From positions 1 to 27,637 of IMG/VR virus record IMGVR_UViG_3300025133_005245: a stretch of DNA of 27,637 bases; one strand, 5' to 3'. Position numbers and translations under genes: made by a program. The DNA is from a virus. This document shows positions 7,676-27,637 of the stretch, piece by piece (the stretch's first letter is position 1; every line of letters begins with the position of its first letter). The notes below the pieces were generated by a model, which saw only the letters and a list, made by a program, of their open reading frames with translations, did not search any database and was not told where the DNA came from.

Positions 7676-7691
7676 AGTCTATCTCCTAAAT

Positions 7692-7708: not shown

Positions 7709-7711
7709 GGA

Positions 7712-14898: not shown

Positions 14899-14959
14899 GA
14901 TTGCCTCCTTAATGCCGCCAGATCGGCGTATCCGACCTGACGGCACAATGCTTAGATGG

Positions 14960-15426: not shown

Positions 15427-15432
15427 GGTTGT

Positions 15433-15443
15433 ACTTTCGCACA
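15433..15443. promoter_or_regulatory. Shared 11-bp motif, copy 2 (upstream of RHH gene)
   Basis: ACTTTCGCACA is identical to 11383-11393 and in the same orientation, 7 bases before the RHH gene start. A TGTCACACA sequence lies about 25 bases further upstream. It is a candidate operator for the RHH protein or another regulator. Confidence 0.45.
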
Positions 15444-15492
15444 GGTGGGGATGGGGCGCAAGAGAAATGTCACACAATGTGCAACAAAGGTA

Positions 15493-15516
15493 TTGACGTA
15501 GCCGTTTCCCTATGAT
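15493..15516 (+). promoter_or_regulatory. Promoter-like element for the RNA/tRNA leader
   Basis: TATGAT (15511-15516, five of six sigma-70 -10 bases) would place a start near 15523, just before the first RNA hairpin. TTGACG (15493-15498) looks like a -35 box, but the spacer is only 12 bases. A standard spacing would pair it with the weak TTTACT at 15516. Moderate support only. Confidence 0.35.
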
Positions 15517-15526
15517 TTACTCGCTA

Positions 15527-15636
15527 CAGACTTAGGAACGGTATCGCGAAGCCGCCCTTAGTCTGCGGGTGAAAGAGTCGGGAGGCTCTGCGTATGACAC
15601 GGTGTAACGATCACCACTGAGTCATACGGCACCCGC
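15527..15636 (+). ncRNA. Folded RNA: hairpin plus three-way junction
   Basis: A 10-bp stem with one mismatch pairs 15527-15536 with 15556-15565, with an inner CGG/CCG pair. It abuts a three-way junction: P1 pairs 15565-15571 (GCGGGTG) with 15630-15636; P2 is an AGAG/CTCT hairpin (15574-15589); P3 is an 8-bp stem (15591-15598 with 15621-15628) capped by a GGTG/CACC inner stem (15601-15615). Almost every base is in a helix or tight loop, and the fold begins where a transcript from the TATGAT box would. No open frame with a ribosome site overlaps it. It does not match tmRNA, 6S or hammerhead cores by eye. Confidence 0.6.
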
Positions 15637-15644
15637 CAGTTTAT

Positions 15645-15714
15645 AGGCGAGTAGCTCAGTGGTAGAGCGCGGCTATTGTAGGCCGTAGACGCAAGTTTGA
15701 TTCTTGCCTCGCCT
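15645..15714 (+). tRNA. tRNA-like gene with irregular anticodon arm
   Basis: The acceptor stem is a perfect 7 bp (AGGCGAG with CTCGCCT). The D arm is GCTC/GAGC. The T arm is a perfect 5-bp stem with a TTTGATT loop. The anticodon arm has only 16 bases instead of 17, giving either five pairs (one G-U) and a 6-base loop ATTGTA, or four pairs and an 8-base loop. By position the anticodon would be TGT (Thr), but GTA cannot be excluded. CCA is not encoded. It may be a degenerate or unusual tRNA. Confidence 0.7.
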
Positions 15715-15722
15715 CTTTACAT

Positions 15723-15798
15723 TGCGGGATGGGCCAGTCTGGTAAGCCGCTAGCCTCATAAGCTAGAGACGCATGTTCGAATCATGCTCCCGCTACCA
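15723..15798 (+). tRNA. tRNA with CAT anticodon (Met or Ile2), CCA encoded
   Basis: The cloverleaf is complete: acceptor TGCGGGA with TCCCGCT, D arm GGCC/AGCC with loop AGTCTGGTA, anticodon stem CTAGC/GCTAG with loop CTCATAA, a 4-base variable region, T stem GCATG/CATGC with TTCGAAT, then ACCA. The first acceptor pair is a T-T mismatch, as in initiator tRNAs, and the D loop resembles initiators. The three G-C pairs that mark initiators are absent from the anticodon stem. It is therefore probably an elongator Met or a lysidine-type Ile tRNA. Confidence 0.88.
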
Positions 15799-15800
15799 CA

Positions 15801-15946
15801 TGCCGAACGGGGATGTAAGTGACGTGAGGGTGCAAACCACACCCTGCTGGTGCGAACCGAAATCCAGAACTGCCCTTGGTTGGCAACAATTCTGGGCCAG
15901 ACCTGAGAGGGTTAGGGCGCACGCGCAGGCTTTCCCTTGAGGCGCC
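15801..15946 (+). other. Hairpin-rich non-coding leader after the tRNAs
   Basis: There is no gene in this stretch. Stems seen: AGGGTG/CACCCT (15827-15845); TGGT/ACCG with a GCGA tetraloop (15848-15859); CCAGAA/TTCTGG enclosing TGCC/GGCA (15864-15895); and GGCGC/GCGCC (15916-15946). They follow each other without long unpaired gaps. The first gene of the rightward cluster starts 19 bases later. It may be a second structured RNA or a regulated 5' leader. Confidence 0.45.
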
Positions 15947-15964
15947 AACACACAGGAGAACAGG

Positions 15965-16189
15965 ATGAGCAATGCCTACAACGATTGGATACGCGACAAC
16001 CTACAAGACGCTGCTATTGTGCTCAGAGACAACTGGCCGGACGAAGGACTAGACCTGCACTACGAAGAAATAAGGGCTACGTTCTCCACCGTACACACGG
16101 CTGAACGCTTCTTCAAAGCACTCCTTGCCCTCAGAGAAGCCCTACCTACACGCCCTATCAGCACAACATCACCAACAGCGGGGGAATAA
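15965..16189 (+). CDS. Small helical protein, first gene of rightward cluster
   Basis: This 74-residue protein starts at the ATG at 15965, preceded by AGGAGAACAGG. It is mostly helical and acidic in the first 60 residues, with a Pro/Thr-rich end. The TAA overlaps the next gene's ATG (TAATG), so translation is coupled. It follows the folded leader directly, so its expression is the one most exposed to any control by that RNA. No family is recognised. Confidence 0.65.
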   Translation: MSNAYNDWIRDNLQDAAIVLRDNWPDEGLDLHYEEIRATFSTVHTAERFFKALLALREALPTRPISTTSPTAGE

Positions 16190-16344
16190 TGAGGATTGAA
16201 GCAGGATTTGATTGGAAGCATTGGACGTTCAAGCCCTTTCGCCAAGAGACTATCGTAGTGCTTGGCAAGATAACGGTGTACACCCACATAGACATAGGCC
16301 CCCTGTTTGTTACGATAGTGCATCAGCCACGGATGGTGGGGTAG
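16189..16344 (+). CDS. Small beta-rich unknown protein
   Basis: This 51-residue ORF begins at the ATG overlapping the previous TAA, with GGGGGAA before it. Its TAG overlaps the next GTG start (TAGTG). It is rich in Ile, Val and Thr with a Trp/Phe N-terminal part. Support is coupling at both ends; no family is recognised. Confidence 0.55.
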   Translation: MRIEAGFDWKHWTFKPFRQETIVVLGKITVYTHIDIGPLFVTIVHQPRMVG

Positions 16345-16646
16345 TGAATGAGAACACAGATACACATGCCCCTGCCGATGCCGACATGGAACAGGATTCT
16401 AGGGATGCAACACTTCCTGCGAATGAAGTTGAGACAATACCTTCACCATGCCGTATCCATTTCCATTCAGTACGGAAAAGACTGGCCGACTTGGATGGAC
16501 TTTCAGGGAAAGCGGTACTCGACGGAATTGTTCATTCTGGAATACTATCAGATGATTCGCCCAAATACGTCTCGGAAATCAGACATACGCAGTCTAAAGG
16601 AAGCGTTGAAGAAACAGTCGTGACGCTGGAGTGGGGAGAAGAGTGA
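16344..16646 (+). CDS. RusA-like Holliday junction resolvase
   Basis: From the GTG at 16344 this gives 100 residues. The C-terminal half shows the RusA pattern: LADLDG, then Lys four residues on, LDGIVHSGIL, then DDS. These match the metal-binding Asp residues and lysine of RusA, which cuts four-way junctions in phage recombination and replication. The N-terminal 35 residues are acidic and probably disordered, and the protein is somewhat shorter than E. coli RusA (120). The neighbouring HNH and NinB genes make a lambda nin-like recombination cluster. The frame stays open upstream to 16212 but would overlap the previous gene. Activity is inferred from residue pattern. Confidence 0.7.
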   Translation: MNENTDTHAPADADMEQDSRDATLPANEVETIPSPCRIHFHSVRKRLADLDGLSGKAVLDGIVHSGILSDDSPKYVSEIRHTQSKGSVEETVVTLEWGEE

Positions 16647-16960
16647 TAGCATACAAACTAATCAAGAAGCGCAAGAACGGCACCTACGGCCCCCTATTCT
16701 TTGACGCAAGGCTCAACATCCCCTTCGGCGTGTGGCTGGATGCAAAGGACATGGGACCAAAGAAAGGCTATGCTCGCAGACCGGGATGGCATTGCTGCTT
16801 CACACCTTGCGCTCCACACCTGTCAAACAAGGGGCGAGTGTGGGCAGAGGTGGAGATAGAGGATCATAGCACATACAAGCGCCCTAAGTGCCAAGGTGGT
16901 GCATGGTTGCTGGCAAAGCGCATTAAGTTCAATCGCATCATGTTTGGGGAGGCACCATGA
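16643..16960 (+). CDS. Conserved phage protein of unknown function
   Basis: This 105-residue protein starts at a GTG overlapping the previous TGA (GTGA), with GGAG four bases before. It is basic and beta-rich, with many Trp, Gly, Lys and Arg residues, a GPLF segment after the first strand, a PGWHC segment and a KGRVWAEVEIED strand. I have seen this layout in phage and prophage proteins without assigned role. Its place between RusA-like and HNH genes suggests a nucleic-acid function (inference). Confidence 0.7.
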   Translation: MIAYKLIKKRKNGTYGPLFFDARLNIPFGVWLDAKDMGPKKGYARRPGWHCCFTPCAPHLSNKGRVWAEVEIEDHSTYKRPKCQGGAWLLAKRIKFNRIMFGEAP

Positions 16961-17187
16961 AAGACCACGTAAAGAACTACCTCAAAGCCAAGGGCCTCTA
17001 CCACCCCAATGCTATTGAGCCGCCATTTATCCCCTGTGAGGACTGCGGAGCACCAGCCGTAGACATCCACCACAAGCGGGGCAGGCGTATTCCTGACGCA
17101 GATCACATTGAGAATTTAGAGGCTTTGTGTCGTCAGCACCACGCAGACAGGCATAATGTGCGGATAGCAGATGGAGGTGAGTGGTGA
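16957..17187 (+). CDS. HNH endonuclease-like protein
   Basis: This 76-residue protein has the compact HNH core. CEDCG (Cys27, Cys30) is one half of a zinc site, IHH (38-39) is the first catalytic His, Asn53 follows DADHIEN, and Cys58 with HHADRH (61-66) completes the fold. HNH proteins make metal-dependent cuts in DNA. In a recombination cluster it may nick or process branched DNA, or assist packaging as small HNH proteins do near terminase genes. The start overlaps the previous stop (ATGA). Confidence 0.85.
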   Translation: MKDHVKNYLKAKGLYHPNAIEPPFIPCEDCGAPAVDIHHKRGRRIPDADHIENLEALCRQHHADRHNVRIADGGEW

Positions 17188-17624
17188 GTAAGCAATTCAC
17201 GGTACACGACAATGCCTCTCTAAGCGCCTTGACCATCCACCTGAGGGAAAGGCTGGCCGAAGGGGCTACGATGCGCTGTAGCGTCTCTGAGGGCCTCTCA
17301 CGGTCATCTCAGCAGAACGCTATGCTACACGCATGGATAACGCAGATCAGCAGGGAGCGAGGAGAGCACACACCCGCAGAGGTAAAGGCCTTCTGCAAAC
17401 TCCACTTCGGCGTAGCCATCATGCGAGGGGCTTCCCCTGAGTTCAATGAGTTCTACAAAGAGGCTCTGATTGGACTGCAATACGAACAAAAGCTACAGGC
17501 TATGGAGTATATTCCATTGACATCCATGATGAATGTGTCTCAAATGACAGAGTTTCTAACAGCTATACAAAAGCATTACGCAGGGCTGGAGACAGATCCT
17601 GTGATATTGGAGGGAAGCGAATGA
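17184..17624 (+). CDS. ninB: NinB-like recombination protein
   Basis: This 146-residue protein resembles NinB (YbcN-like), a lambda protein that binds single-stranded DNA and helps RecA-like or Red recombination. Matching features are the early strand, the QQNAMLHAWITQISRE helix, an EVKAFCKLHFG helix, and the C-terminal SQMTEFLTAIQ helix. The start at 17184 (GTG) has GGAGG six bases before it and overlaps the previous TGA. The alternative GTG at 17181 has worse spacing. With the RusA-like and HNH genes it forms a nin-type cluster. Confidence 0.82.
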   Translation: MSKQFTVHDNASLSALTIHLRERLAEGATMRCSVSEGLSRSSQQNAMLHAWITQISRERGEHTPAEVKAFCKLHFGVAIMRGASPEFNEFYKEALIGLQYEQKLQAMEYIPLTSMMNVSQMTEFLTAIQKHYAGLETDPVILEGSE

Positions 17625-17794
17625 GTGATGCACGCAGAGAAAAGCAAGCCGCACGACTAAGGGACGAATCGACCCGAATGCATGATAAGCGAATCCCCAC
17701 ATGCTATCACGGCATTCGCATGGACAAGAACTGCATCCAGTGTCTTTCAGTCATGGTGGGGTCGCTCGACATACCAAACAGCAGGCGGGGTTAA
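17621..17794 (+). CDS. Small cysteine-containing basic protein
   Basis: This 57-residue ORF begins at the ATG overlapping the NinB stop (ATGA), with AGGGA before it. It has a basic helical N-terminus and three cysteines in the C-terminal half (one in TCYHG, two in CIQC). That set may bind zinc with the preceding His. Its TAA overlaps the next ATG. Confidence 0.55.
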   Translation: MSDARREKQAARLRDESTRMHDKRIPTCYHGIRMDKNCIQCLSVMVGSLDIPNSRRG

Positions 17795-17967
17795 TGACAG
17801 ACACAGACCGCATCAACTTCCTGCAACGCGCACTATCAGGAGCACGATTCTCTTGCAGATGGAGCTACACAGGACCGGGACTAAGGATGTTCAGTACAAA
17901 GAATCGCAGGGCTAAAGCATCCCTCAGGGACGCCATTGACACAATGATACAGGAGGACGACAAGTGA
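17794..17967 (+). CDS. Small basic unknown protein
   Basis: This 57-residue ORF starts at the ATG at 17794, which overlaps the previous TAA, with GGCGGGG before it. It is Arg/Lys-rich in the middle with a C-terminal helix. It overlaps the next GTG start by four bases. No family is recognised. Confidence 0.55.
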   Translation: MTDTDRINFLQRALSGARFSCRWSYTGPGLRMFSTKNRRAKASLRDAIDTMIQEDDK

Positions 17968-18191
17968 GCAAGTGCTGGTGGTGCCATACAGAATCAGAAC
18001 GACCCCTATGCCCTGAATGTGCCAGCGAAAGCAACGCAAGAGCACTCGTTAGCCGACGAATGAACTCAGGATGTAAGAATCCTCCCAAGGTGGCTGGTCG
18101 TACAACCTTCAATAAACGTAAGAAACAAACAGAAACAGCACACATGTCCCTAGGACTCAGAGACCACACATACGTACAGGTGGAAGCATGA
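17964..18191 (+). CDS. Small zinc-ribbon-like protein
   Basis: This 75-residue protein has CxxC (residues 4-7) and CPEC (about 16-19), a compact four-cysteine zinc site, then a Lys/Arg-rich middle that could contact nucleic acid. Start GTG at 17964 with AGGAGG upstream overlaps the previous TGA. No family is recognised. Confidence 0.6.
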   Translation: MSKCWWCHTESERPLCPECASESNARALVSRRMNSGCKNPPKVAGRTTFNKRKKQTETAHMSLGLRDHTYVQVEA

Positions 18192-18388
18192 AGACCTACA
18201 CAGCAGCAGAAGTGCATGAAATGCTACAGGAAGTGTTAGACAACCTCCACCGCCTACGCATCGACTGGGACGGACTAGAGGCACTCAAAGACTCCCCCCT
18301 CGTTACATGGGAGGACGTGTGCTGCGAAGTGGAAGACAAGAAGGCGCTCGTTAGGAATTGGGAATGGGGCACGAATGAACAACTTTGA
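18188..18388 (+). CDS. Small acidic helical protein before terminase
   Basis: This 66-residue protein starts at an ATG overlapping the previous TGA (ATGA) and overlaps the terminase start by 14 bases. It is acidic and helical with two vicinal cysteines near residue 45. Its place before the large subunit recalls a small terminase, but it has no helix-turn-helix and is very short. The helix-turn-helix protein at 23976-24596 is a better candidate. Confidence 0.6.
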   Translation: MKTYTAAEVHEMLQEVLDNLHRLRIDWDGLEALKDSPLVTWEDVCCEVEDKKALVRNWEWGTNEQL

Positions 18389-20234
18389 GTACGAGTTCAT
18401 ACTCAACGGAGAGGCTTGGAAGGGCACACACGCTGAGTACATGAAACAGGACGATCTGCTTGCAGAGGTGCGCAACCCAGACAATGTACGCTTCTTCCTT
18501 GGCCTCACCGTAGTCTGCTGCAACAAGAAGTGGCTGGCACAACAGCCCAAGTACCAAGCACAACTCAGACTCATTGAACAGGAACAGCGCACCAACCCTC
18601 TCAGGTTCTACGCCCCCAACTCTCAGGAGCAGCTTGACTTCCTGAATGATGAGGACGCTACATCCTGTGCCATCGTTGACCTCAACCGATCTGGCAAGAC
18701 AACAGCGGCATGGGTGAAGATGCTTGTAGGCCCCCATCCCATGATCAAGGCAGACCCGTCATGGGAGATATTCTCCTGTCATGGCATGAAGTACCAAGAC
18801 TTCCACGGCCCCATTTCCGTAGGTGTAGCCACTTACAACACAGCCAAGTTAGACGACCCGATATGGAAGGAAATTGTAAAGAAGTGGACTCCCGACGATG
18901 AACTAGGCAAGTTCAGGCGCTACAACAAGAAGCGTGGCTGTCGCTACTCTCCCAACTGGGGGCATGACAAGACCATCCAATTCGCCGTCAGCAACTCAAT
19001 GCTAGGGTTCTACACGTACGAGAGCGACCAAGGCAATTACGAAGGTGGCGCTCTCAAGAAATGGCTATGGGACGAACAGGGCAAGAAGCCCATGTGGGAC
19101 GGCGCTGATCGTGGTACGCGAACAACGAACGGTGTACACTACTTCTCACTCACCCCGCACAAGGTGGAGGGCAGAGCAGACACCGGAGGACAGGGCTGGA
19201 TGTACCCCTTCCTCACAGGCCAGATCAGTCACGGCCACGATGTAGGCGTTCACAGCGGCACAACCATCTGGGACATACCAGATTGGATATACCCACTCAA
19301 GATGAAGCAGATAGAAGTGGAGAAGTGGGAGGGAGAACCCCTGCGAATCCAAGAAACAACTGGCGTATCACAGCGCAAGGTCTTAGCAGAAGGGCGAGCA
19401 CGCCTATACGGAGAGTGGCATTTGACAGCAGACGTGGTATTAGACGAATGGCAGCCTGAGTTTAGCTGGATTGAGCCTCTGTGGGACAAGCCTCCCAAGG
19501 ATGTGACGTGCTACAGGGCTATGGATCACGGCATCAACAATCCCACCGTATGCCTCTGGTTTGCTGTGGACAAGGACGGAAACATCTACCTCTATCGCTC
19601 GTATTACAACAAAGAGCGCACGATTGGTGAGAATGTCAAAGCAATCATTGAAATGTCAGGGAATACACGCAAGAAATTAGGGGATTACAGGGACAATCAG
19701 AGTGGATTGGTGTTTGAGCAGTATGAAGAGGAGTACAAGAGCGAGTGGTTTGCCTCTCAGGTGATGGATAGCCGCAGTTTTTCCCTGCCTGACAAGATGT
19801 GTGGCAAGCCGCACGGGTGGATATACAAGCAAGCGGGACTAACAGGCATCAAGAAGGCTGCCGGGAAGTTCAGTAGCCACTGGATACCGCTGTTCCAAGA
19901 GTTGTTGAAGGTAGATCCTGAGCGTATGCACCCCGTCACAGGCCAGATGGGAGCACCACGCTTCTACATCTTCAACAATCCATGCAACATCCCCTTCAAA
20001 TACGAACTAGAGCACTATTTCTGGAAGCCCCACAAGGAAGGCGCAGAGAATCCTAAGTCAGAACCACTCAAGAAGAACGACCACGGCATTAACGCTGCTG
20101 CATACGGCATAATGATCCCGATGCGCTTTTTGGGCAACATGGGTGGAGGCGATGATGAGGACATCGTTGAGGGCGTATATGACCAGCAGGAGCACGCCAA
20201 AGAGCAGGAGGATGACGGGTACAGAAGAATTTAG
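18375..20234 (+). CDS. terL: Terminase large subunit (packaging ATPase and nuclease)
   Basis: This 619-residue protein pumps DNA into the prohead and cuts the concatemer. The ATPase half has a Walker A-like motif LNRSGKTT (residues 103-110) and a Walker B WLWDEQ (230-235). The nuclease half has YRAMDHG (Asp384), the strand CLWFAVD, and NDHG (Asp569) near the C-terminus, the expected acidic residues of the RNase H-like fold. An acidic tail follows and may contact the portal. The N-terminal 75 residues are extra relative to short terminases. It sits on the plus strand, opposite to the capsid genes, which is less usual. Start ATG overlaps the previous gene by 14 bases. Confidence 0.93.
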   Translation: MNNFEYEFILNGEAWKGTHAEYMKQDDLLAEVRNPDNVRFFLGLTVVCCNKKWLAQQPKYQAQLRLIEQEQRTNPLRFYAPNSQEQLDFLNDEDATSCAIVDLNRSGKTTAAWVKMLVGPHPMIKADPSWEIFSCHGMKYQDFHGPISVGVATYNTAKLDDPIWKEIVKKWTPDDELGKFRRYNKKRGCRYSPNWGHDKTIQFAVSNSMLGFYTYESDQGNYEGGALKKWLWDEQGKKPMWDGADRGTRTTNGVHYFSLTPHKVEGRADTGGQGWMYPFLTGQISHGHDVGVHSGTTIWDIPDWIYPLKMKQIEVEKWEGEPLRIQETTGVSQRKVLAEGRARLYGEWHLTADVVLDEWQPEFSWIEPLWDKPPKDVTCYRAMDHGINNPTVCLWFAVDKDGNIYLYRSYYNKERTIGENVKAIIEMSGNTRKKLGDYRDNQSGLVFEQYEEEYKSEWFASQVMDSRSFSLPDKMCGKPHGWIYKQAGLTGIKKAAGKFSSHWIPLFQELLKVDPERMHPVTGQMGAPRFYIFNNPCNIPFKYELEHYFWKPHKEGAENPKSEPLKKNDHGINAAAYGIMIPMRFLGNMGGGDDEDIVEGVYDQQEHAKEQEDDGYRRI

Positions 20235-20287
20235 GTTGACGCAACAGGACACAGGTGTCACATTGGCACCACACAGGAGGACAGGAC

Positions 20288-20425
20288 ATGACCATCGGTA
20301 CAGGAATAGCGATAGCAGGAGTGTGGGTGTTTGCAGGAATAGCATGGTATTCCAAGAACGTAAGTGGCGCAGGAATGCTCACGGCAATCGTAGTCGCAAT
20401 CATCATAACAGCCTGCTTGGCTTAG
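20288..20425 (+). CDS. Small two-span membrane protein
   Basis: This 45-residue protein starts at the ATG at 20288, preceded by AGGAGGACAGGAC. It holds two hydrophobic segments (about 4-20 and 29-44) with a short polar turn of Lys, Asn and Ser between them. Two-span small membrane proteins in phages can be holins or membrane modifiers, but no endolysin is nearby, so I do not name it. It lies 11 bases before the GroES-like gene. Confidence 0.6.
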   Translation: MTIGTGIAIAGVWVFAGIAWYSKNVSGAGMLTAIVVAIIITACLA

Positions 20426-20436
20426 GAGGACGGACA

Positions 20437-21009
20437 ATGAACGAAGCAGAACGATTCTTAGACAAGGTGGAGCGCCCTGTAGGCACCTACCTACTCATTC
20501 GCAAGTGCGCAAGAGGCGAACAGATAGGCAATGAGTTCATGGACGGTGGCATCATTCTACCGGACACGACTTGGGACGACACGAACTTCTGCTCTATATG
20601 CGGCGTAGGCCCCGACTGCAAACTCTTCACAGAGGACATGCTAGGCTCTACCACATGGTGCCCTGAAGCACCCAACTCACTCAGCGAAGCAGGATGCCCT
20701 GAGTCTTTCTACTTCGTCAAGGAAGAGGACTTAGTACCCCTGCTCTTTGACGACTCAACCATCACACCCATCAAAGACATGGTGCTGGTAGCTGTGAAGC
20801 CCCTCACTATAGACGGGCTAGAGCTAACACAGAAGAACAACCAATACGACCCGTGGGGCTTTTGCATCAGTGTAGGTCCATGTGTACGGGACATACTGGT
20901 TGGCTTTGAATGCCTAGTGAGCGAGAAGTCGTTTGTCTTCATGGTAGGGGGCACACATGTCACATGCATCCCTGAGCATAAGATTGCAGCCGTGCAGGTG
21001 CCAGAATGA
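20437..21009 (+). CDS. Tandem GroES-like co-chaperonin
   Basis: This 190-residue protein appears to hold two GroES-like domains. Domain 1 (about 14-105) starts with a YLLIRK strand, has a GGIIL mobile-loop-like motif (37-41, like the IVL that docks on GroEL), a GVGPDCK turn and an FYFVKEEDLVPLL strand-helix. Domain 2 (about 110-188) repeats the pattern: VLVAVKP strand, GLEL loop, SVGP turn, THVTCIP..KIAAVQV end. Phage co-chaperonins (T4 Gp31) cap host GroEL to fold capsid protein; a duplicated one would give half the subunits per ring. Start has AGGAGG nine bases before. Homology is by pattern, and six cysteines in domain 1 are unusual. Confidence 0.6.
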   Translation: MNEAERFLDKVERPVGTYLLIRKCARGEQIGNEFMDGGIILPDTTWDDTNFCSICGVGPDCKLFTEDMLGSTTWCPEAPNSLSEAGCPESFYFVKEEDLVPLLFDDSTITPIKDMVLVAVKPLTIDGLELTQKNNQYDPWGFCISVGPCVRDILVGFECLVSEKSFVFMVGGTHVTCIPEHKIAAVQVPE

Positions 21010-21245
21010 AGATACGCACACTAACACTTGCCGTACTCCCAGAGGACAAGCCCATCTTTGACGAATGCTGCACCATCGTCACCATAGACGACGAAGCCGC
21101 TGGGGAATACGTCATTGTCAAACAAGAGCCACTTGGCAAGGATGAGCAAAGCATAGGCATTGACCCTGACGAATGGCCCGCAATACGTGACGCCATAGAC
21201 TCCATGTTCTCAGAAATCAAGATGCACACACAGGAGACAGAATGA
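21006..21245 (+). CDS. Small acidic unknown protein
   Basis: This 79-residue protein starts at an ATG overlapping the co-chaperonin stop (ATGA). It has a beta-rich N-terminal half and an acidic C-terminal helix. It lies in a five-gene coupled run. No family is recognised. Confidence 0.62.
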   Translation: MKIRTLTLAVLPEDKPIFDECCTIVTIDDEAAGEYVIVKQEPLGKDEQSIGIDPDEWPAIRDAIDSMFSEIKMHTQETE

Positions 21246-21421
21246 CAGACCAACAAACAGCACTACTACTCTCAGCCATCATAGGACGCATTGAAACAGC
21301 CCTACGAATCGACAAGAGCAACAGCGAATACTACGAACTAGCTGAGGCTTTACAAGCCTTTACAATCGACCTAGAGAGCTTTGACGGATGCGTATGCACC
21401 AGATGCAGGGAGCGAGAATGA
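21242..21421 (+). CDS. Small acidic helical protein
   Basis: This 59-residue ORF starts at the ATG overlapping the previous stop and ends with a TGA overlapping the next ATG. It is mostly helical and ends with three cysteines in a GCVCTRC cluster. Coupled at both ends; function unknown. Confidence 0.6.
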   Translation: MTDQQTALLLSAIIGRIETALRIDKSNSEYYELAEALQAFTIDLESFDGCVCTRCRERE

Positions 21422-21612
21422 AAGACTACGACTTCATCATCACATACACAGACAAATGCCCTTACAAAGCAGGAGACATCATAGAATCAGGCGTATCATC
21501 AGCGCCTAACGTCATCACATGCTTCCCCGGCACAGCCAAGGTGGTGCTTGCAACGCAAAGAGGCAGCACTCACAGCGTCGTTGTCAAACTGAAAGACCCA
21601 GATGAATCTTGA
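21418..21612 (+). CDS. Small beta-rich unknown protein
   Basis: This 64-residue protein starts at the ATG at 21418 (overlapping the previous TGA). It is Val/Thr/Ser-rich with probable strands and a CPYKAGD turn. It overlaps the next gene by 11 bases. No family is recognised. Confidence 0.6.
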   Translation: MKDYDFIITYTDKCPYKAGDIIESGVSSAPNVITCFPGTAKVVLATQRGSTHSVVVKLKDPDES

Positions 21613-21856
21613 AAAACTAGGAATACTGCCAGAACCCATAGAACCATACGACAAACTCTATTGCGTATTCGGCAGAGGCTACATCCCCATAGACTCATTC
21701 GGCTCAATGGAGGACGCCATTAAGTTCATCCAAGGTTGCAGACAAGCACACGCATCCTCAGCCAAGATGCGTATAGTGCATTATAACCTAGACGTTCACG
21801 CCGATGTAGTAGATTGGATGGAAGCATTGGAGACAGAGAAAGGCGGCGCGGAATGA
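21602..21856 (+). CDS. Small unknown protein
   Basis: This 84-residue protein overlaps its neighbours by 11 and 4 bases. An N-terminal acidic/aromatic region precedes a helix (about 34-55) and a final strand-helix pair. No family is recognised. Confidence 0.6.
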   Translation: MNLEKLGILPEPIEPYDKLYCVFGRGYIPIDSFGSMEDAIKFIQGCRQAHASSAKMRIVHYNLDVHADVVDWMEALETEKGGAE

Positions 21857-22215
21857 GCATCAAGACAGATTGGGTGATGTGCGTACACGACAAGCGAGTT
21901 GTGGACTGCAAGCCATGTTACGACATGACGCAAGTTGCCGTTGACCCTTGGCGCGAAATGGTCAGGACACTCCGCGCACGGGTCGCGGAGTTGGAGGCCG
22001 AGCGGGACGAGTGGAAAGCGTCGGCAACGACACTCAAGAACCTTGCAGGACTCGCGACAAGCACACTTGAGGCAGAGCGGGATGCCCGAATCCCCGTTAG
22101 CTGGATCAGAGAACGCGCAACGAAGTGGAGAGCGCAAGACGACCACGACTTTGCCGACATCGTTGACGATCTTGCAGACGCATGGGAGCGCCAGAAGAAA
22201 GGCGGCAAGGAATGA
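21853..22215 (+). CDS. Coiled-coil protein, unknown function
   Basis: This 120-residue protein starts at the ATG at 21853, overlapping the previous TGA. Residues 1-25 have two cysteines with His (CVHDKRVVDCKPC pattern), possibly a zinc site. Residues 35-80 form a strong coiled coil rich in Leu, Ala, Glu and Arg. The rest is charged helix. Small zinc/coiled-coil phage proteins like this have no assigned role. It is the last gene before a stable hairpin. Confidence 0.65.
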   Translation: MSIKTDWVMCVHDKRVVDCKPCYDMTQVAVDPWREMVRTLRARVAELEAERDEWKASATTLKNLAGLATSTLEAERDARIPVSWIRERATKWRAQDDHDFADIVDDLADAWERQKKGGKE

Positions 22216-22220
22216 CTACC

Positions 22221-22252
22221 TGCCCCCTCTAGCAACCTTGCCGGAGGGGGCA
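22221..22252 (+). promoter_or_regulatory. Stable hairpin holding the ribosome site of the next gene
   Basis: TGCCCCCTC (22221-22229) pairs perfectly with GAGGGGGCA (22244-22252). The GGAGGGGG stretch at 22243-22250 is the only Shine-Dalgarno-like sequence before the ATG at 22261. The hairpin therefore masks it. No T-run follows, so a terminator is unlikely. Confidence 0.5.
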
Positions 22253-22260
22253 ACACGCAC

Positions 22261-22743
22261 ATGATCACTACAAATATCACCACAGAACAACTGCAAAGAG
22301 CCAAAACACTATACCCATTCAGCAGCCTCAACGGATCAATCACCAAAGGCAAAAGCAACATCTATGGAGCCATTGGCGAAATCATCATCCAAGACCACTA
22401 CGCTCACAAAAACACCAACACTAACCCCACATACCACTACGACCTCACCATCGAAAACCTCAAAGTAGACGTCAAAACCAAGAAAACCACCGTCACACCA
22501 CTACCACACTACCTGTGCAGCATATCAGCATTCAATACCACACAACAATGCGACTACTACATCTTCTGCCGTGTCAATACCACACTCACCACATGCTTCA
22601 TCCTAGGCTATAAGGACAAACAAGCATTCTTCAAAGAGGCCACATTTAACAAAAAAGGTTCCCCTGATGTCAACGGATGGACTTTCAAGGACGACTGCTA
22701 CAACCTCCCCATAGCAGCACTCAACCCCGTGACCCCCGCTTAA
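22261..22743 (+). CDS. PD-(D/E)xK-like nuclease, putative
   Basis: This 160-residue protein carries an ordered nuclease-like set: Glu40 in GAIGE, Asp61 in YHYD, and a VDVKTK segment at 69-74 (Asp70, Lys72), followed by a strand and helix. This is the core spacing of the PD-(D/E)xK fold. The rest (TPLPHYLCSISAF and a CDYYIF strand, then a C-terminal FFKEATF segment) resembles phage nucleases of restriction-like type. It could degrade host DNA or process recombination ends. The coding strand is unusually rich in A and C with few G, unlike the genes before it. Its ribosome site is inside a hairpin. Confidence 0.65.
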   Translation: MITTNITTEQLQRAKTLYPFSSLNGSITKGKSNIYGAIGEIIIQDHYAHKNTNTNPTYHYDLTIENLKVDVKTKKTTVTPLPHYLCSISAFNTTQQCDYYIFCRVNTTLTTCFILGYKDKQAFFKEATFNKKGSPDVNGWTFKDDCYNLPIAALNPVTPA

Positions 22744-22852
22744 CCCTCACACGCTTCCCCCGGTTCAACAACCGCCAACCCTCATCCCACTTGCGCCTGT
22801 CCACAGGCCTCACCCCATCACCCTTACCCGCTTCCTTATTCCCCTTAGCCAT
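22721..22852 (-). CDS. Small conserved phage protein (basic, Lys/Arg/Trp-rich)
   Basis: This 43-residue ORF starts at the ATG at 22852 with GGAGG six bases before it. It has a Lys/Gly-rich start, then a RPVDRRKWDEGWRLLNRG pattern that matches a very common short phage protein with conserved Asp/Trp residues and unknown role. It is convergent with the nuclease gene and overlaps its end by 23 bases. Confidence 0.65.
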   Translation of the reverse strand: MAKGNKEAGKGDGVRPVDRRKWDEGWRLLNRGKRVRVKRGSRG

Positions 22853-22911
22853 CACACACCTCCACAGCCCCCAATGGGCACATTAACACACCACAAGCCA
22901 CGTAAAGGCAC

Positions 22912-23502
22912 CTACAAGGCCTCGCAGGCGTGTTTCCAATGGTAGCCACCAGCCCTCGTCCCCGTCTTGATAGACGCACACACAGCCTTCCTGCCCCTCC
23001 CTATAGCACGCCCAGCAGCAGCACCACTCTTGTACACCTCGCCCGTCTCAACACACACCACAGCCTTATCCTTCCCTTTTCGCTCACGCCTCCCCGCTTT
23101 TACGTCAGCCCAATACGCACCAAGGCTCTCCCTAGACGCCTCACGCTGCGCATCCGTAGCCGTACGATTACGTATGTTCTCCTCCAACGTCACAAACCGC
23201 ACATTCCCCGGTTCATAATTCCCATCATTATCTATCCGATCTATCGTCAACCCGTCCCCATATCCCTTCTTCACACAGAAGTCAGCAAACACATTGTAGT
23301 CCCTCCACTCAGCACACACACTTATCCCCCTACCACCATACCTATGCCACTGAGCCATAGCGGGATTAGTACAACGCACCCACATGTTCTTCCACATACT
23401 ATGCATACGGGTAGGCTGCCTGTCTATGTAGCGAGGATAACCACAGTCATAACTACCAGCCTTCACACGCTTGTACGGATCTAACTTCTTCTCACGCATC
23501 AT
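22912..23502 (-). CDS. HNH homing-type endonuclease with NUMOD-like C-terminus
   Basis: This 196-residue protein starts at 23502, with AGGAG six bases before ATG ATG. Residues 33-66 have the MWKNMWxRCTNP, then HRYGGRGISVCAEW pattern, and 86-100 have TIDRIDNDGNYEPGN, the signature of a phage HNH nuclease group. The C-terminal part (about 150-196) resembles a NUMOD1 DNA-binding module: a VVCVETGEVY strand, a helix with Ala/Gly, and a final GYHWKH. Free-standing homing endonucleases of this kind spread between phage genomes. Not being inside another gene or intron, it is probably an intergenic insertion. The plus strand here is very C-rich. Confidence 0.85.
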   Translation of the reverse strand: MMREKKLDPYKRVKAGSYDCGYPRYIDRQPTRMHSMWKNMWVRCTNPAMAQWHRYGGRGISVCAEWRDYNVFADFCVKKGYGDGLTIDRIDNDGNYEPGNVRFVTLEENIRNRTATDAQREASRESLGAYWADVKAGRRERKGKDKAVVCVETGEVYKSGAAAGRAIGRGRKAVCASIKTGTRAGGYHWKHACEAL

Positions 23503-23657
23503 AACGCTCTCCTTGTGTTTCCAGCATGTAACCATAAGCAATGTGTCGAGTCAAGCGCTTATGTCTAACGTGTAACAGAGCAGACGTTATAGTGCGTACA
23601 TAGTGTTACCAAAGACCCACTCTCACAACTACTGCGCGTATAAGAACAACTATCACC

Positions 23658-23699
23658 AGCGCTAAGCACGATAGCACTAAGCAATGCAAACACTAGGCA
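23658..23699. repeat. Three iteron-like direct repeats
   Basis: AGCGCTAAGCA (23658-23668), AGCACTAAGCA (23673-23683) and AACACTAGGCA (23689-23699) repeat at 15-16 base spacing. Each keeps CTA(A/G)GCA. Spacing of about one and a half helix turns is shared by some replication iterons and operators. Confidence 0.45.
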
Positions 23700-23768
23700 G
23701 CATTACGCCAATACTCAGAATAACGCAATTCACTAGCAAACTGTAACTCCCGCTGTATATGGAGATAG

Positions 23769-23812
23769 CCTTTTAGCAGCACCCCCCCCGATGAGAGAGA
23801 ACCTTTTAGTAG
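23769..23812. repeat. Spaced direct repeat CCTTTTAGnAG around a C8 run
   Basis: CCTTTTAGCAG (23769-23779) and CCTTTTAGTAG (23802-23812) lie 33 bases apart, three helix turns, with eight consecutive C (23782-23789) between them. A binding-site pair is possible. Confidence 0.4.
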
Positions 23813-23847
23813 AGGCTTCGGCTGAAAATGCATATATATACACAAAC

Positions 23848-23874
23848 GGGCACGGGGAGGGGCAAGGGTAGGGG
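23848..23874 (+). other. G-quadruplex motif
   Basis: Five runs of three or four G (848-850, 854-857, 859-862, 866-868 and 871-874 after base 23000) are separated by loops of one to three bases. This meets the standard quadruplex pattern on the plus strand and follows an alternating AT tract. Confidence 0.6.
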
Positions 23875-23975
23875 CCTGTCTGACCCTACTAGACATACAC
23901 TACGGGCCACGCGCCACGTCTCATAACTCACAGAATGTCGAACACGTCAAACACACCTATCTTATTGAGTATCAA

Positions 23976-24596
23976 CTACTTGCTACTATCAGGCTCAATT
24001 ATTTCTACGTCTATAGCCTTAAGCCCAGCCAGCGCCGAGTTGTCAGTCTGATGCTCTACTATCTGCTGCTGCTGCGCTAACCGCTTGGCGTTGTGCAGCT
24101 TATCTGCGGCCACCCCGGCCACGACTGCTGCCTGTTGAAGACTCACCTTGTCTCCGGCTTCTAGCTTGTCCAGAACTAGCGATTGTGCCCGTGCCTGTAC
24201 GATCTGCCAGTCATGCTCAGCCAGTTTTGAACGTATTGAAGGATTTGAGACGAAAACCCCTAGCTTATCATACGTTTGCACAATATTAGTTACTCTACTT
24301 CTAGAGATGCCGTGCCGGTCTGCTACGGCCTGATGTGTTAGGCCCTTGGCTACTCCGCACAGTATGCTGATTATAGTGTCTGGCAGGCCCTGTAGATGGT
24401 CTGGGAGATCCTCCGGGGGTATTACTGCCAGTGTGGTCTCCCTAGAGGCTTCTGGGGACTCTGACAGGGCAGCTAGTGTCTCTGAGGTCTCGTGCACTCT
24501 TGGGTGTCTGGGTCTGCCCCCGAGCTTGCCATTGACCTTGTGTTGCTCTAGTTCTTCCGGTGTCATCTCTTCTCTAGTGCGTTGCTTGTATGGCAT
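23976..24596 (-). CDS. Helix-turn-helix protein, candidate small terminase subunit
   Basis: This 206-residue protein starts at an ATG with AGGAG seven bases before. Residues 1-33 are charged with an NGKLGGRPR segment, often seen at the N-terminus of small terminases and similar DNA-binding proteins. A helix-turn-helix is at about 85-108 (GLTHQAVADRHGISRSRVTNIV). The C-terminal half is helical with Gln/Ala/Leu repeats, suited to oligomerisation. A small terminase recognises pac or cos DNA and activates the large subunit. Separation from the large subunit (3.7 kb, opposite strand) is unusual, so a transcription or replication regulator is an alternative. Regular direct repeats lie just upstream. 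Confidence 0.6.
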   Translation of the reverse strand: MPYKQRTREEMTPEELEQHKVNGKLGGRPRHPRVHETSETLAALSESPEASRETTLAVIPPEDLPDHLQGLPDTIISILCGVAKGLTHQAVADRHGISRSRVTNIVQTYDKLGVFVSNPSIRSKLAEHDWQIVQARAQSLVLDKLEAGDKVSLQQAAVVAGVAADKLHNAKRLAQQQQIVEHQTDNSALAGLKAIDVEIIEPDSSK

Positions 24597-24608
24597 TGCT
24601 ATTCTCCT

Positions 24609-24660
24609 GTGCTTTGCATTGCAGAGTGCTTTGTTTAGTGTAGTGCTTTGCTAGTGCTCT
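24609..24660. repeat. GTGCTTTG direct repeats at 17-bp spacing upstream of HTH gene
   Basis: GTGCTTTG occurs at 24609-24616, 24626-24633 and 24643-24650, each exactly 17 bases apart, with a partial GTGCTCT at 24654-24660. The first lies at the ribosome site of the HTH gene. This looks like an operator array or a terminase recognition site. Confidence 0.5.
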
Positions 24661-24698
24661 ACATGCTGCCATATGCTTGTCATCATTGCAATATTGAT

Positions 24699-24770
24699 TC
24701 TCATTGTTGCACATATGCGAGGTGATATTGTCTCATTGTGTCCCATAGGTGTCTCATTGGTGTTTCATAG
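24699..24770. repeat. TCTCATTG direct repeats in the leader of the small-gene array
   Basis: TCTCATTG occurs at 24699-24706, 24731-24738 and 24752-24759. Each is followed by a CATA sequence 5-6 bases later (CATATG, CATAGG, CATAGC). The array lies between the divergent HTH gene and the first gene of the hairpin cluster. Confidence 0.4.
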
Positions 24771-24834
24771 CGTGTTGGCATGGTGTATGCATGTATATGC
24801 TGGCGTGAACGATAAACCAACAATAGGAGAGACC

Positions 24835-25095
24835 ATGACAGTTAGAAAGCAATATGTCTATACAGTGTACATCCCCGGTGACTATAAGGATAGTCTGGAC
24901 TGGTTTGAGGTATTCCCGTCTATGCGTGCCGCTAAGATAGCAGCGGATCATTACGCGAGCAGTCAAGATGACGGCTTGTGGGGCACGGTATCCTTCACAG
25001 CATTTGACGTTGCGAATGGTCGCGATCATTTCGGCATGAACGGCCAGCGCTGTATCGTTATCGAACAGACCGAATCTTACTATCACGGTGCCTAG
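24835..25095 (+). CDS. Small unknown protein, first gene of hairpin array
   Basis: This 86-residue protein starts at the ATG at 24835, preceded by AGGAGAGACC; the longer frame upstream has no ribosome site. It is beta-rich at the N-terminus (tyrosines and valines), then a helix (about 31-41), then strands. Its first 18 coding bases are identical to those of the next gene. It ends with Ala-stop inside the first hairpin element. Function unknown. Confidence 0.68.
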   Translation: MTVRKQYVYTVYIPGDYKDSLDWFEVFPSMRAAKIAADHYASSQDDGLWGTVSFTAFDVANGRDHFGMNGQRCIVIEQTESYYHGA

Positions 25096-25143
25096 CACAT
25101 CGGGGGGCACGGCTTGTTCGCGCCTCCTAGTGTGGCAGGAAAC
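25090..25143 (+). repeat. Hairpin element copy 1
   Basis: Starts with GCC-TAG, the last codon and stop of the preceding gene. The 10-bp stem 25102-25111/25119-25128 has an A-C mismatch at 25109 and two G-U pairs; loop GCTTGTT. CTAGTGTGGCAGGAAAC follows. Confidence 0.75.
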
Positions 25144-25161
25144 ACTAAAAAAGGACGAGAC

Positions 25162-25332
25162 ATGACAGTTAGAAAGCAAATCGAATTACTAGAGCGTGCA
25201 GCCATGATCATAGAAGCCGTCTCGGATGAGGACTATGACAGTCTTCTAGATGAGGGGGCGAGACCGGGCGAGACTCACCAGCATCTTATGAACCTGATTG
25301 AAGCTCTGTATGCTGTTAAGCGTGTAGCCTAG
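25162..25332 (+). CDS. Small helical unknown protein
   Basis: This 56-residue acidic, helical protein starts at 25162 with AAAGGACGAGAC before the ATG. Its first six codons equal those of the previous gene, but the rest is unrelated, as expected after recombination at the gene start. It ends with Ala-stop in the second hairpin element. Confidence 0.65.
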   Translation: MTVRKQIELLERAAMIIEAVSDEDYDSLLDEGARPGETHQHLMNLIEALYAVKRVA

Positions 25333-25381
25333 CAAGCCGGGAGGCGCGGCTTGTTCGCGCCTCCTAGTGTGATAGGTAAAC
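25327..25381 (+). repeat. Hairpin element copy 2 (perfect stem)
   Basis: GGAGGCGCG (25340-25348) pairs perfectly with CGCGCCTCC (25356-25364), with one more G-U pair possible outside. Loop GCTTGTT. It begins GCC-TAG and is followed by CTAGTGTG and a GATAGGTAAAC segment. Confidence 0.8.
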
Positions 25382-25395
25382 GAAAGGGAGAGACG

Positions 25396-25638
25396 ATGAC
25401 ATTGGAAGATATAAGTAAGGCAATGATTAAAGACCTTCGCGTCAATTGGCCACAAGGCAAAACTTACGTACATTACGGCACGCGAAAAAAGGCGGCTGAG
25501 AAGATTCTCACCGATAGCTTTATTCGTACAATGGACACAATGGGCATTAACGAGGAAACAAAGGGCTATTTCTTTGCCTTTGCCGACGTGGCGTATGCGC
25601 CCTATATGGGGCGTGCAATGGACAAGTTGAACGCCTAG
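25396..25638 (+). CDS. Small unknown protein
   Basis: This 80-residue protein starts at 25396, preceded by AAAGGGAGAGACG. It has an N-terminal helix, a basic middle region (Lys/Arg) and aromatic-rich C-terminal part (YFFAFADVAYAPY). It ends Asn-Ala-stop in the third hairpin element. No family is recognised. Confidence 0.65.
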   Translation: MTLEDISKAMIKDLRVNWPQGKTYVHYGTRKKAAEKILTDSFIRTMDTMGINEETKGYFFAFADVAYAPYMGRAMDKLNA

Positions 25639-25685
25639 CAAGCCGGGGGGCACGGCTTGTCGTGCCCCCTAGTGTGGTAGGTAAC
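25633..25685 (+). repeat. Hairpin element copy 3 (compensatory stem)
   Basis: GGGGGCACG (25646-25654) pairs perfectly with CGTGCCCCC (25661-25669). Compared with copy 2, a G-C pair has become A-T and a further pair changed from A-T to G-C. Loop GCTTGT is one base shorter. Confidence 0.8.
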
Positions 25686-25702
25686 AACGAAAGGGAAAGA
25701 CA

Positions 25703-25942
25703 ATGAAACGGTTAGGAAATGTGTTGCCGACAAGGGAAAGCTTTGATTGTAGCGCAGAGTACGCAAGGCGTGAGAAGGAAAACAAGATGCGCATTGCGAA
25801 AAAAGAGCTGAAGGGTTTGGAGCCTATAGAATCAGACTGGGAAACTCGTTATTATAAAGCAGATACGATTTATGCGGTGATAGGACGGGATAATAAGGTT
25901 CATTGGTTTGAAGTGCGCGAAGATGGGGACTACCGTTCATGA
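25703..25942 (+). CDS. Small charged unknown protein
   Basis: This 79-residue protein starts at 25703, preceded by AAAGGGAAAGACA. It has a strongly basic/acidic helix (about 20-38) followed by strands with Trp and Tyr. Its stop overlaps the next ATG (ATGA), so the two form one cassette. Confidence 0.65.
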   Translation: MKRLGNVLPTRESFDCSAEYARREKENKMRIAKKELKGLEPIESDWETRYYKADTIYAVIGRDNKVHWFEVREDGDYRS

Positions 25943-26124
25943 AAGTTGATCTAACACGGGCGCAAGTGTACGCGCTGTTGTATGCGACGGGTAACTTTAC
26001 AGACTATGAGGGGACCGGGGATAGTGCGAAAGATCGGGCAATGGATAACGCTGAAAAGCGTCTCAAGGCTGCATTACAAAAAGAGAAATGGCAAGCGAAC
26101 CAAATTAAAGAAAGCAATGCCTAG
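25939..26124 (+). CDS. Small helical unknown protein
   Basis: This 61-residue protein is coupled to the previous gene by ATGA. It begins with KVDLTRAQVYALLYATG, then a charged helix rich in Lys, Ala and Asn/Gln. It ends Asn-Ala-stop in the fourth hairpin element. No family is recognised. Confidence 0.63.
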   Translation: MKVDLTRAQVYALLYATGNFTDYEGTGDSAKDRAMDNAEKRLKAALQKEKWQANQIKESNA

Positions 26125-26171
26125 CGCATCGGGGGACGCGGCTTGTTCGCGCCTCCCAGTGTGGCAGGAAA
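26119..26171 (+). repeat. Hairpin element copy 4
   Basis: Ten-position stem 26131-26140/26148-26157 with one A-C mismatch (26136) and one G-U pair. Loop GCTTGTT. Followed by CAGTGTGGCAGGAAACG, almost identical to copy 1. Confidence 0.75.
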
Positions 26172-26184
26172 CGAAAGGGACGAC

Positions 26185-26466
26185 ATGAACTGGAAAGCAA
26201 TAGACACAAGCAATGCCCGATATTTGGGCGTTATTGAGATAGAAGACGGCGACGGGGATTTGAGTCCCTTTGAAGTACTGGAGACTGACACACACATAGT
26301 GTTTGGCGGGATGTGCAATGTTGGCTTTATTGAGTCTGGCCACATTGAACGGGAGGACTACGAGAGTATTGACGAGACTTTGCAGGAGATGCATGAAGAC
26401 TTACAGGTGTATTATAGAGACGGGGTGCAATACGTTTCCCGCATTGTGTGCAATGAAAGGATGTAA
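26185..26466 (+). CDS. Small acidic unknown protein
   Basis: This 93-residue protein starts at 26185, preceded by GAAAGGGACGAC. It is strongly acidic (many Glu and Asp) with probable strands and a final helix; cysteines are few. Acidic small phage proteins often act as inhibitors or DNA mimics, but nothing here proves it. The next gene starts five bases later. Confidence 0.65.
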   Translation: MNWKAIDTSNARYLGVIEIEDGDGDLSPFEVLETDTHIVFGGMCNVGFIESGHIEREDYESIDETLQEMHEDLQVYYRDGVQYVSRIVCNERM

Positions 26467-26470
26467 GGCA

Positions 26471-26854
26471 ATGACTAAGAAAGAAATGACAATAGCGGCA
26501 AGCGTAGTTGATACGCTTAAGGGGATGTGTGCGGATGACTTCGCGCAGGATCTCTTTGAATGTGCAATCAATGGTGCCCACGGGGTTTATGTGGGCCAGC
26601 GTATAGGGGAGATGTTCGGACATTTGATGCCAGACCTATCTCAGGAGGATAGGCTTATCCTGTGCGATAGTGAACACGAATACTACTGTGATGTGTGGAG
26701 TGATGCAGATCAGTTAGATATAAAGGCTCCTGACGGAAGCATCCACAATCTCTACACTACTGAGAATGGTGATGTGATGTGCTATGCCGTAAAGGATCTT
26801 GAATTATGGGAATCTGTCAACGATGCAGACTTCTGGGAAGAATTGAACGCCTAG
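26471..26854 (+). CDS. Acidic unknown protein
   Basis: This 127-residue protein starts at 26471, with TAAGG before the ATG. It is strongly acidic, helical in the first half and beta-rich in the second (Trp, Tyr, Asp). Its first 12 coding bases equal those of the gene at 27124. It ends Asn-Ala-stop in the fifth hairpin element. A host-takeover or anti-defence role is possible from context only. Confidence 0.65.
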   Translation: MTKKEMTIAASVVDTLKGMCADDFAQDLFECAINGAHGVYVGQRIGEMFGHLMPDLSQEDRLILCDSEHEYYCDVWSDADQLDIKAPDGSIHNLYTTENGDVMCYAVKDLELWESVNDADFWEELNA

Positions 26855-26901
26855 CATGCCGGGGGGTACGGCTTGTTCGTACCTCCTAGCACGCTAAGCC
26901 G
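26849..26901 (+). repeat. Hairpin element copy 5 (second compensatory stem)
   Basis: Stem 26861-26870/26878-26887, ten pairs including two G-U. At two neighbouring positions the pairs are T-A and A-T where copy 2 has C-G and G-C. Loop GCTTGTT. Followed by CTAGCACGCTAAG, which differs from copies 1-4. Confidence 0.78.
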
Positions 26902-26919
26902 TGAGAAAGTAGGGCAGAC

Positions 26920-27108
26920 ATGAAAATGAGAACATGCACAGACATTAACGGGAATAAGACTCTGAAATTCGGGCGCTATAGCGTGCAAACCAATGGGAAC
27001 CTCCCGGAGACCCATAGGCGTGGCGTATGTGATAGCACGTTGGCAGAATTACGGGATTACGTGAACAAGTACGGGACGGAAAAACAACGCGCCTATTTAA
27101 GCGCATAA
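26920..27108 (+). CDS. Small basic unknown protein
   Basis: This 62-residue protein starts at 26920, preceded by AGTAGGGCAGAC. It is basic, with a beta-like first half and a C-terminal helix (about 42-58). The next gene follows 15 bases later. No family is recognised. Confidence 0.62.
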   Translation: MKMRTCTDINGNKTLKFGRYSVQTNGNLPETHRRGVCDSTLAELRDYVNKYGTEKQRAYLSA

Positions 27109-27123
27109 AGGAGGATAGGAAAA

Positions 27124-27501
27124 ATGACTAAGAAACAGGAACAAGCGATTAGAGAACACGGGGAAAACCTACTGGCAATATTCACGCAATGCGAAAAGGA
27201 GCCTATGGCATTGTGTCGTATCGTGCGCAAATGGGAGCGGGCAGGGGAGGAGCTGGCCCTGCGGCAGTGCAATCGTGGCGTGCCAAATTATGAGGAGGAG
27301 TCAGACAGGATATTGCACATCTTGAATGCCGCACTAGGAAATGACGGAACCGTACCCGTATTCCTGAATGGAGACCCTAGAGGCTACGCCCTGAAGATTG
27401 AAGATGAGTACATGAGGACACATCAGCAGGATAGCCGTTTGCATCGTGACTGGGGCGGATATGGCATCATTGCACCGGAGATAGGAAAGGAAGGTCTTTA
27501 A
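27124..27501 (+). CDS. Small unknown protein
   Basis: This 125-residue protein starts at 27124 after AAAGGAGGATAGGAAAA. It is helical and charged in the first 75 residues, then beta-like. The beginning ATGACTAAGAAA equals that of the gene at 26471. Unlike the five earlier cassette ends it does not end in Ala; it ends Gly-Leu-stop just before the sixth hairpin. Confidence 0.65.
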   Translation: MTKKQEQAIREHGENLLAIFTQCEKEPMALCRIVRKWERAGEELALRQCNRGVPNYEEESDRILHILNAALGNDGTVPVFLNGDPRGYALKIEDEYMRTHQQDSRLHRDWGGYGIIAPEIGKEGL

Positions 27502-27560
27502 TCCTGCGCCGGGGGCATTGGCCCAGTCAATGCCCCTAGCGTGCGATTAAGCGCGATAAG
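27501..27560 (+). repeat. Hairpin element copy 6 (divergent)
   Basis: GGGGCATTG (27512-27520) pairs perfectly with CAATGCCCC (27528-27536), plus one outer G-U. Four inner pairs differ from the other copies but pairing is kept; loop GCCCAGT is also 7 bases. CTAGCGTGCGATTAAG follows, like copy 5. Confidence 0.72.
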
Positions 27561-27572
27561 AAAGGGCAGAAC

Positions 27573-27637
27573 GTGAAGCGATACGATCCAACATGGTGCG
27601 ACAGTGAAGTATTCCAAGGGATGCAGGAGAGAAAAGA
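27573..27637 (+). CDS. Unknown gene cut by right edge
   Basis: A GTG at 27573 has AAAGGGCAGAAC before it, matching the start context of the other cassette genes. The frame stays open to the window end (21 residues, basic N-terminus then a Trp/Cys/Asp segment). Confidence 0.5.
   Translation, partial: MKRYDPTWCDSEVFQGMQERK

Follow-up and report, generated by a model that had tools for sequence, protein, structure and literature searches.

The 27,637-base IMG/VR fragment IMGVR_UViG_3300025133_005245, referred to here as the window and derived from an uncultured virus of bacteria, carries six copies of a hairpin element between positions 25090 and 27549. All copies are located on the + strand in one orientation, and each occupies an intergenic space flanked by unrelated small genes. 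The best explanation for the element, held with moderate confidence, is RNase III processing of a polycistronic early mRNA combined with 3′ hairpin protection. The features observed are the hairpins, their covariation, their placement between stop codon and ribosome binding site (RBS), the orientation shared by all copies and the lack of homology among the genes that they separate. A preliminary description of this DNA had listed six hairpin copies between small genes; all six were found, and the stems and loops quoted there were correct.

Copy 1 is located at 25090-25140, copy 2 at 25327-25377, copy 3 at 25633-25682, copy 4 at 26119-26169, copy 5 at 26849-26899 and copy 6 at 27499-27549. With the upstream stop codon as the starting point, all copies could be aligned in a single register, with gaps confined to the loop. 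The length of the element is 51 nt (50 nt in copy 3). The upper stem comprises 11 pairs (columns 13-23 with 29-39) and encloses a loop of 5 nt, and the lower stem has about 10 bp (columns 7-11 with 41-45 and columns 1-5 with 47-51). Between them lies a C.A mismatch at columns 12/40, which is invariant in the six copies, and column pair 6/46 is unpaired in five of them. Including these two, the complete hairpin extends over 23 positions across both stems, and a helix of about 23 positions amounts to two turns of double-stranded RNA. In the preliminary description the upper stem had been recognized, and the lower stem had been missed.

Standard pairs were found in 92% of the 126 cells (21 column pairs in six copies), and sliding one arm by 1 to 3 columns reduced the pairing from 92% to 38-49%. 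Two-sided changes in at least one copy were detected at 10 of the 21 pairs, in both stems, although the copies are paralogues from a single genome, five of them 67-92% identical, and the changes counted are not independent events. The pattern is well beyond chance expectation: the observed measures of pairing and covariation were reached in none of 500 shuffles, in agreement with the earlier statement that pairing is kept while bases change. Much of the covariation is carried by copies 5 and 6. The lower stem of copy 5 contains different pairs (UAGC/GCUA), and that of copy 6, the most diverged copy (45-49% identity to the others), is mostly different (UAAUC..GAUUA) and still paired. A covariance model (R1) built from the six copies scores each of them at 62-73 bits, a match by construction.

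Folded individually, the copies form 18-23 pairs within 45-53 nt, with folding energies between -26 and -37 kcal/mol. The folding z-scores range from -0.9 to -4.2 and are below -2 in five copies; the energy of copy 4 is not exceptional alone (z = -0.9, the weakest of the six). On the + strand, 23 G.U pairs are opposed to 12 A.C mismatches, or to 6 if the invariant mismatch column is excluded. This excess of G.U pairs gives weak support to the transcribed strand as the folding strand.

The onset of the element coincides with the end of the upstream gene, whose stop codon is TAG at element positions 4-6 in copies 1 to 5 (25093-25095, 25330-25332, 25636-25638, 26122-26124 and 26852-26854); in copy 6 it is TAA and occupies positions 1-3 (27499-27501). 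The element ends 15-23 nt upstream of the next start codon in all six copies. The A/G-rich leader with an RBS that is located 3′ of each hairpin is part of the repeated unit, and the gaps between the array units are 60-71 nt in length. In the self-comparison of the window, spacers matched one another with E-values from 3e-17 to 2e-6, as exemplified by 25327-25399 and 25633-25706 with 87% identity. The duplication begins with the last sense codon and the stop codon (GCCTAG) and runs through the start codon, the RBS included. On the basis of these borders, whole intergenic spacers appear to have recombined or been converted, and the copies to have spread in this way.

No T-run of an intrinsic terminator follows any copy on the + strand, the downstream bases being rich in A and G, and intrinsic terminators were rejected since the T-run is absent behind the stems. 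Likewise, no promoter-like site was detected at or after any element. In the array region the scan, which covered sigma-70-type promoters only, yielded two such sites, both within genes, compared to 4.6 expected by chance. Both absences had already been reported in the preliminary description and are confirmed here.

The array units between the elements consist of one or two genes each, all on the + strand. Gene A (24835-25095; 86 aa, without a family match) is followed by gene B (25162-25332; 56 aa) and gene C (25396-25638; 80 aa). Three two-gene units come next, namely D1 and D2 (25703-26124; D1 25703-25942, D2 25939-26124, overlapping in ATGA), E1 and E2 (26185-26854; E1 26185-26466, E2 26471-26854) and F1 and F2 (26920-27501; F1 26920-27108, F2 27124-27501). 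A further gene 3′ of copy 6 (27573-27637) has a GTG start, leaves the window and continues in the contig L005 of another IMG/VR record. This contig is 99.98% identical to the window over 15593-27637 and extends about 30 bases beyond it. Since the same region is carried by this second record, the array cannot be attributed to misassembly of a single contig.

Compared with one another, the array proteins A, B, C, D1-D2, E1-E2 and F1-F2 have no recognizable similarity, apart from the first 6 codons, which alone are common to A and B. Tandem gene duplication was therefore rejected as the origin of the array, as no two of its proteins are alike. A Pfam scan of the array proteins gave no match above the cut-off, with a single sub-threshold match for E2; the sole relative of E2 that was found is in L005, the near-identical contig of the window. 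The nearest gene upstream of the array is divergently oriented (23976-24596, - strand); it has a weak helix-turn-helix match and is a possible repressor. With such a neighbour, the array would be an early operon, and the helix-turn-helix match is consistent with this reading. An HNH endonuclease gene (22912-23541, - strand) is located in the interval that separates the structural region from the early one.

The processing of this array can be pictured as follows. We infer a single transcript, its cutting and RNase III as the enzyme. The hairpins would mark the borders of the one- and two-gene units in a polycistronic early mRNA, and host RNase III, or a comparable endonuclease specific for double strands, would cut the transcript at the hairpins, resulting in mono- and dicistronic mRNAs. 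In each of these mRNAs, the 3′ end would be protected by a stable hairpin immediately following the stop codon, and the 5′ end would consist of a short leader in which the RBS is free. Recombination or conversion of whole spacers would swap complete genes and leave them unbroken. RNase III processing is the best explanation because size, placement and unit structure match the sites of phage T7. Among the roles listed in the preliminary description, RNA processing and mRNA protection are accordingly the best supported, by the T7-like geometry, the position and the unit structure.

Several points weigh against this explanation. To our knowledge, structure by itself cannot predict RNase III cleavage. 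The elements are without the asymmetric internal loop that is present in the fold of the T7 site R0.5, and model R1 gave no match and no homology in the early region of T7 (1-8000). The element is known from one phage only. Finally, the conserved loop and the C.A mismatch exceed what RNase III needs, and another reader might exist; given six related copies, both may simply be inherited.

The hairpins could also act as insulators in an uncut mRNA, protecting the upstream message from 3′ exonucleases and stopping terminating ribosomes from drifting into the next RBS. This is possible but not probable. In all six copies the hairpin begins at the stop codon and leaves only the RBS leader of 15-23 nt outside, the folds are strong, and a ribosome at the stop codon would be expected to open the lower stem. 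Sequence cannot separate insulation from processing, but inside the two-gene units no hairpin separates the genes, which overlap or almost abut, so that insulation is not required everywhere.

Two further alternatives assign the conserved parts of the hairpin to a reader other than RNase III. The first is a dedicated, lineage-specific RNA punctuation, in which the loop and the C.A mismatch would be read by another phage or host factor, and the lower stem would be opened by the ribosome at the embedded stop codon, coupling processing to the translation of the unit itself; we consider this unlikely. A similarly low probability is given to an RNA hairpin bound by a phage or host protein, acting in attenuation, in antitermination or as the target of a loop-binding repressor. 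The loop GCTTGTT is found in four of the six copies and in copy 3 with one base less, as had been described before, and both the C.A mismatch and the loop-closing G.U pair are invariant across the six copies. On the other hand, copy 6 has a different loop (GCCCAGT), the loop in copies 1 to 5 may reflect their recent descent, and no candidate binding protein was identified.

The exact stop-to-start extent of the duplicated units and the unrelated genes at their flanks would also fit recombination cassettes of the type of the promoter-early stem-loops of T4-like phages, which would be kept because small genes can be exchanged through homologous spacers, the hairpin being secondary. Support for such exchange comes from the related genome G001 (L136-L138), where three pairs of duplicated stop-to-start spacers were found in a region of small genes (19145-20525). 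One example is 20076-20113 and 20477-20514, with 38 identical nucleotides and overlapping stop codons. A strong hairpin is present in only one of the three pairs. Since the duplicated spacers of G001 are mostly without a hairpin, the spread of whole spacers and the selection of hairpins seem to be two separate processes. Gene shuffling, one of the roles proposed earlier, is supported as the mode of spread by these whole spacers duplicated between non-homologous genes. As an account of the hairpin itself, the cassette is improbable: recombination requires sequence identity and leaves the pairing-preserving base changes unexplained, and the unit is without a promoter. Moreover, no tyrosine recombinase (PF00589) was detected in the window, which is a fragment, or in five other records of the family, one of them a copy of the window, and the outer box motifs of attC, RYYYAAC and GTTRRRY, are absent from all six copies. 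For the same two reasons, absent box motifs and an integrase that was not found, integron attC sites were rejected.

A reading as DNA palindromes that serve as binding sites of a dimeric protein, which has been proposed for the 17-bp repeats of cluster O mycobacteriophages (PMC4351075), is very unlikely, and operators of this type were rejected because the arms vary between copies with the pairing kept; the repeats are inverted and intergenic as in cluster O, but G.U pairs are common and the orientation relative to transcription is the same in all six copies.

Apart from contig L005, 18 records of the phage family were recovered through capsid and terminase searches. Four of them (G001, G002, G013 and G018) look complete, with sizes of 49-51 kb and direct terminal repeats of at least 127 bases. 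Model R1 was run against G001-G004 and G006-G019 and found no match outside the window itself. The covariance-model search that had been suggested for finding more copies gave no homologue outside the single phage. Neither loop-based DNA patterns in viral contigs nor a looser consensus in viral and genome contigs revealed a further element among the matches listed. Besides L005, all ten pattern candidates inspected are contained in long open frames and were regarded as chance matches; the best model score among the candidates was 33.6 bits, for a Pseudofrankia sequence (L166), inside an open frame of 508 codons. A nucleotide search of the array against named phages gave no match. In protein searches against named phages, no match was obtained for the portal, and Thermobifida phage P1312 gave the single, weak match of the terminase. 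On the available evidence, the element family is confined to a single phage.

An Rfam scan of the window with E up to 1 identified two tRNAs and nothing else. They are adjacent genes at 15645-15798; one is a tRNA-Met (CAT), and the anticodon of the other was left unassigned by ARAGORN.

Hairpins of other kinds are present elsewhere in the window and the family. Between the stop codon of the capsid gene and the next RBS, a strong hairpin was found in all six members examined (the window, G001, G002, G003, G004 and L203). These hairpins have no sequence in common and are unrelated to the array element. In the window, the post-capsid hairpin is located at 6141-6176 on the - strand, in a stop-to-RBS gap at 6123-6206. 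An unrelated 15-bp hairpin at 14912-14946 (- strand) lies between two genes, in the gap 14899-14959 and just before TAAGGAGG and ATG, and another strong intergenic hairpin at 22220-22253 (gap 22216-22260) is located directly before the RBS or start. All three have z-scores of about -5. Hairpins between stop codon and RBS are a habit of the family, since they are present after the capsid gene in all six tested members. Recombination seems to spread whole spacers, while selection for a hairpin seems to act in many spacers.

Several observations concern the remaining part of the window. The terminase gene (18375-20234) and its neighbour (20431-21009), both on the + strand, are opposite to the portal and capsid genes on the - strand. 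In G001-G004, terminase, neighbour homologue, portal and capsid are consecutive on one strand. This arrangement suggests that about 9.6 kb of the window (11414-21009) are inverted. Of this putative inversion, only the right junction is supported by L005, and in the self-comparison of the window no long inverted repeats were seen at its ends. The gene at 1117-5388 (- strand; 1423 aa) is a probable tail gene with internal repeats of 64-84% DNA identity within 1500-4250, and its N-terminal part alone matches G001 and G002.

The preliminary description had named the promoter-early stem-loops (PeSLs) of T4-like phages and the start-associated sequences (SASs) of mycobacteriophages as the nearest concepts; both comparisons proved weaker, as promoter and SAS are absent, and the closest analogue, T7, had been missed. 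PeSLs consist of an early promoter and a stem-loop, are located between small variable genes and are tied to gene shuffling (PMC4503421). The array resembles them in its stem-loop units between small variable genes, but a PeSL needs an early promoter within the unit, and none was seen in the array units. In cluster K mycobacteriophages, many starts of non-structural genes are preceded by extended start-associated sequences (ESASs), imperfect inverted repeats whose halves are separated by a short spacer (PMC3203893). Imperfect inverted repeats upstream of starts are likewise found in the array, whereas ESASs have 17-bp half-sites with a conserved consensus beside the 13-bp SAS. The SAS GGGATAGGAGCCC gave no match near the start codons with up to 2 mismatches allowed. 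SAS and ESAS were rejected, since the SAS is absent and the arms covary instead of forming conserved half-sites. Cluster O mycobacteriophages contain many 17-bp palindromic repeats, which are often intergenic and whose copies recombine, resulting in deletions (PMC4351075). Their half-sites are invariant, occur in either orientation and lie inside genes in many cases, in contrast to the variable arms and the single orientation of the array.

The closest similarity was found with phage T7. Its early polycistronic mRNA is cut at five positions into mono- and dicistronic mRNAs (PMC4858673), and the RNase III sites of T7 total ten (PMC9135205). The five early sites (R0.3, R0.5, R1, R1.1 and R1.3) form a family of related, diverged hairpins, compared to six copies in the array, whose early status is suggested by the adjacent divergent helix-turn-helix gene. 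The early intergenic regions of T7, which are reported to be the RNase III sites (Dunn and Studier 1983), were folded by the same procedure as the array elements. R0.5 folds into a hairpin of 52 nt with 21 pairs, which starts at the stop codon of gene 0.4 and ends 16 nt before gene 0.5, and the intergenic spaces that contain R0.5, R1 and R1.3 measure 62-80 nt (R1, 70; R1.3, 80). In both phages, irregular hairpins that are related to one another, with about 20 pairs in about 50 nt, are located between small early genes of the same direction and divide mono- and dicistronic units; with R0.5 the array elements also have in common that they begin at a stop codon and end shortly before the next start. 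The systems differ in sequence, as homology is absent, in the mismatches, which are symmetric in the array elements, in the upper stem, which is far more GC-rich than the T7 sites, and in the phage promoter, which T7 has alongside its sites and the array has not.

The elements form a new and unrelated sequence family, and their function probably belongs to a kind already known. The exact stop-to-start duplication would allow small genes to be added or exchanged unbroken, each gaining the same processing signal and RBS. Should cleavage be confirmed, an uncultured family barely similar to named phages would have evolved its own counterpart of the classical T7 system independently, and repeated hairpins dividing a polycistronic early message would be a convergent solution.

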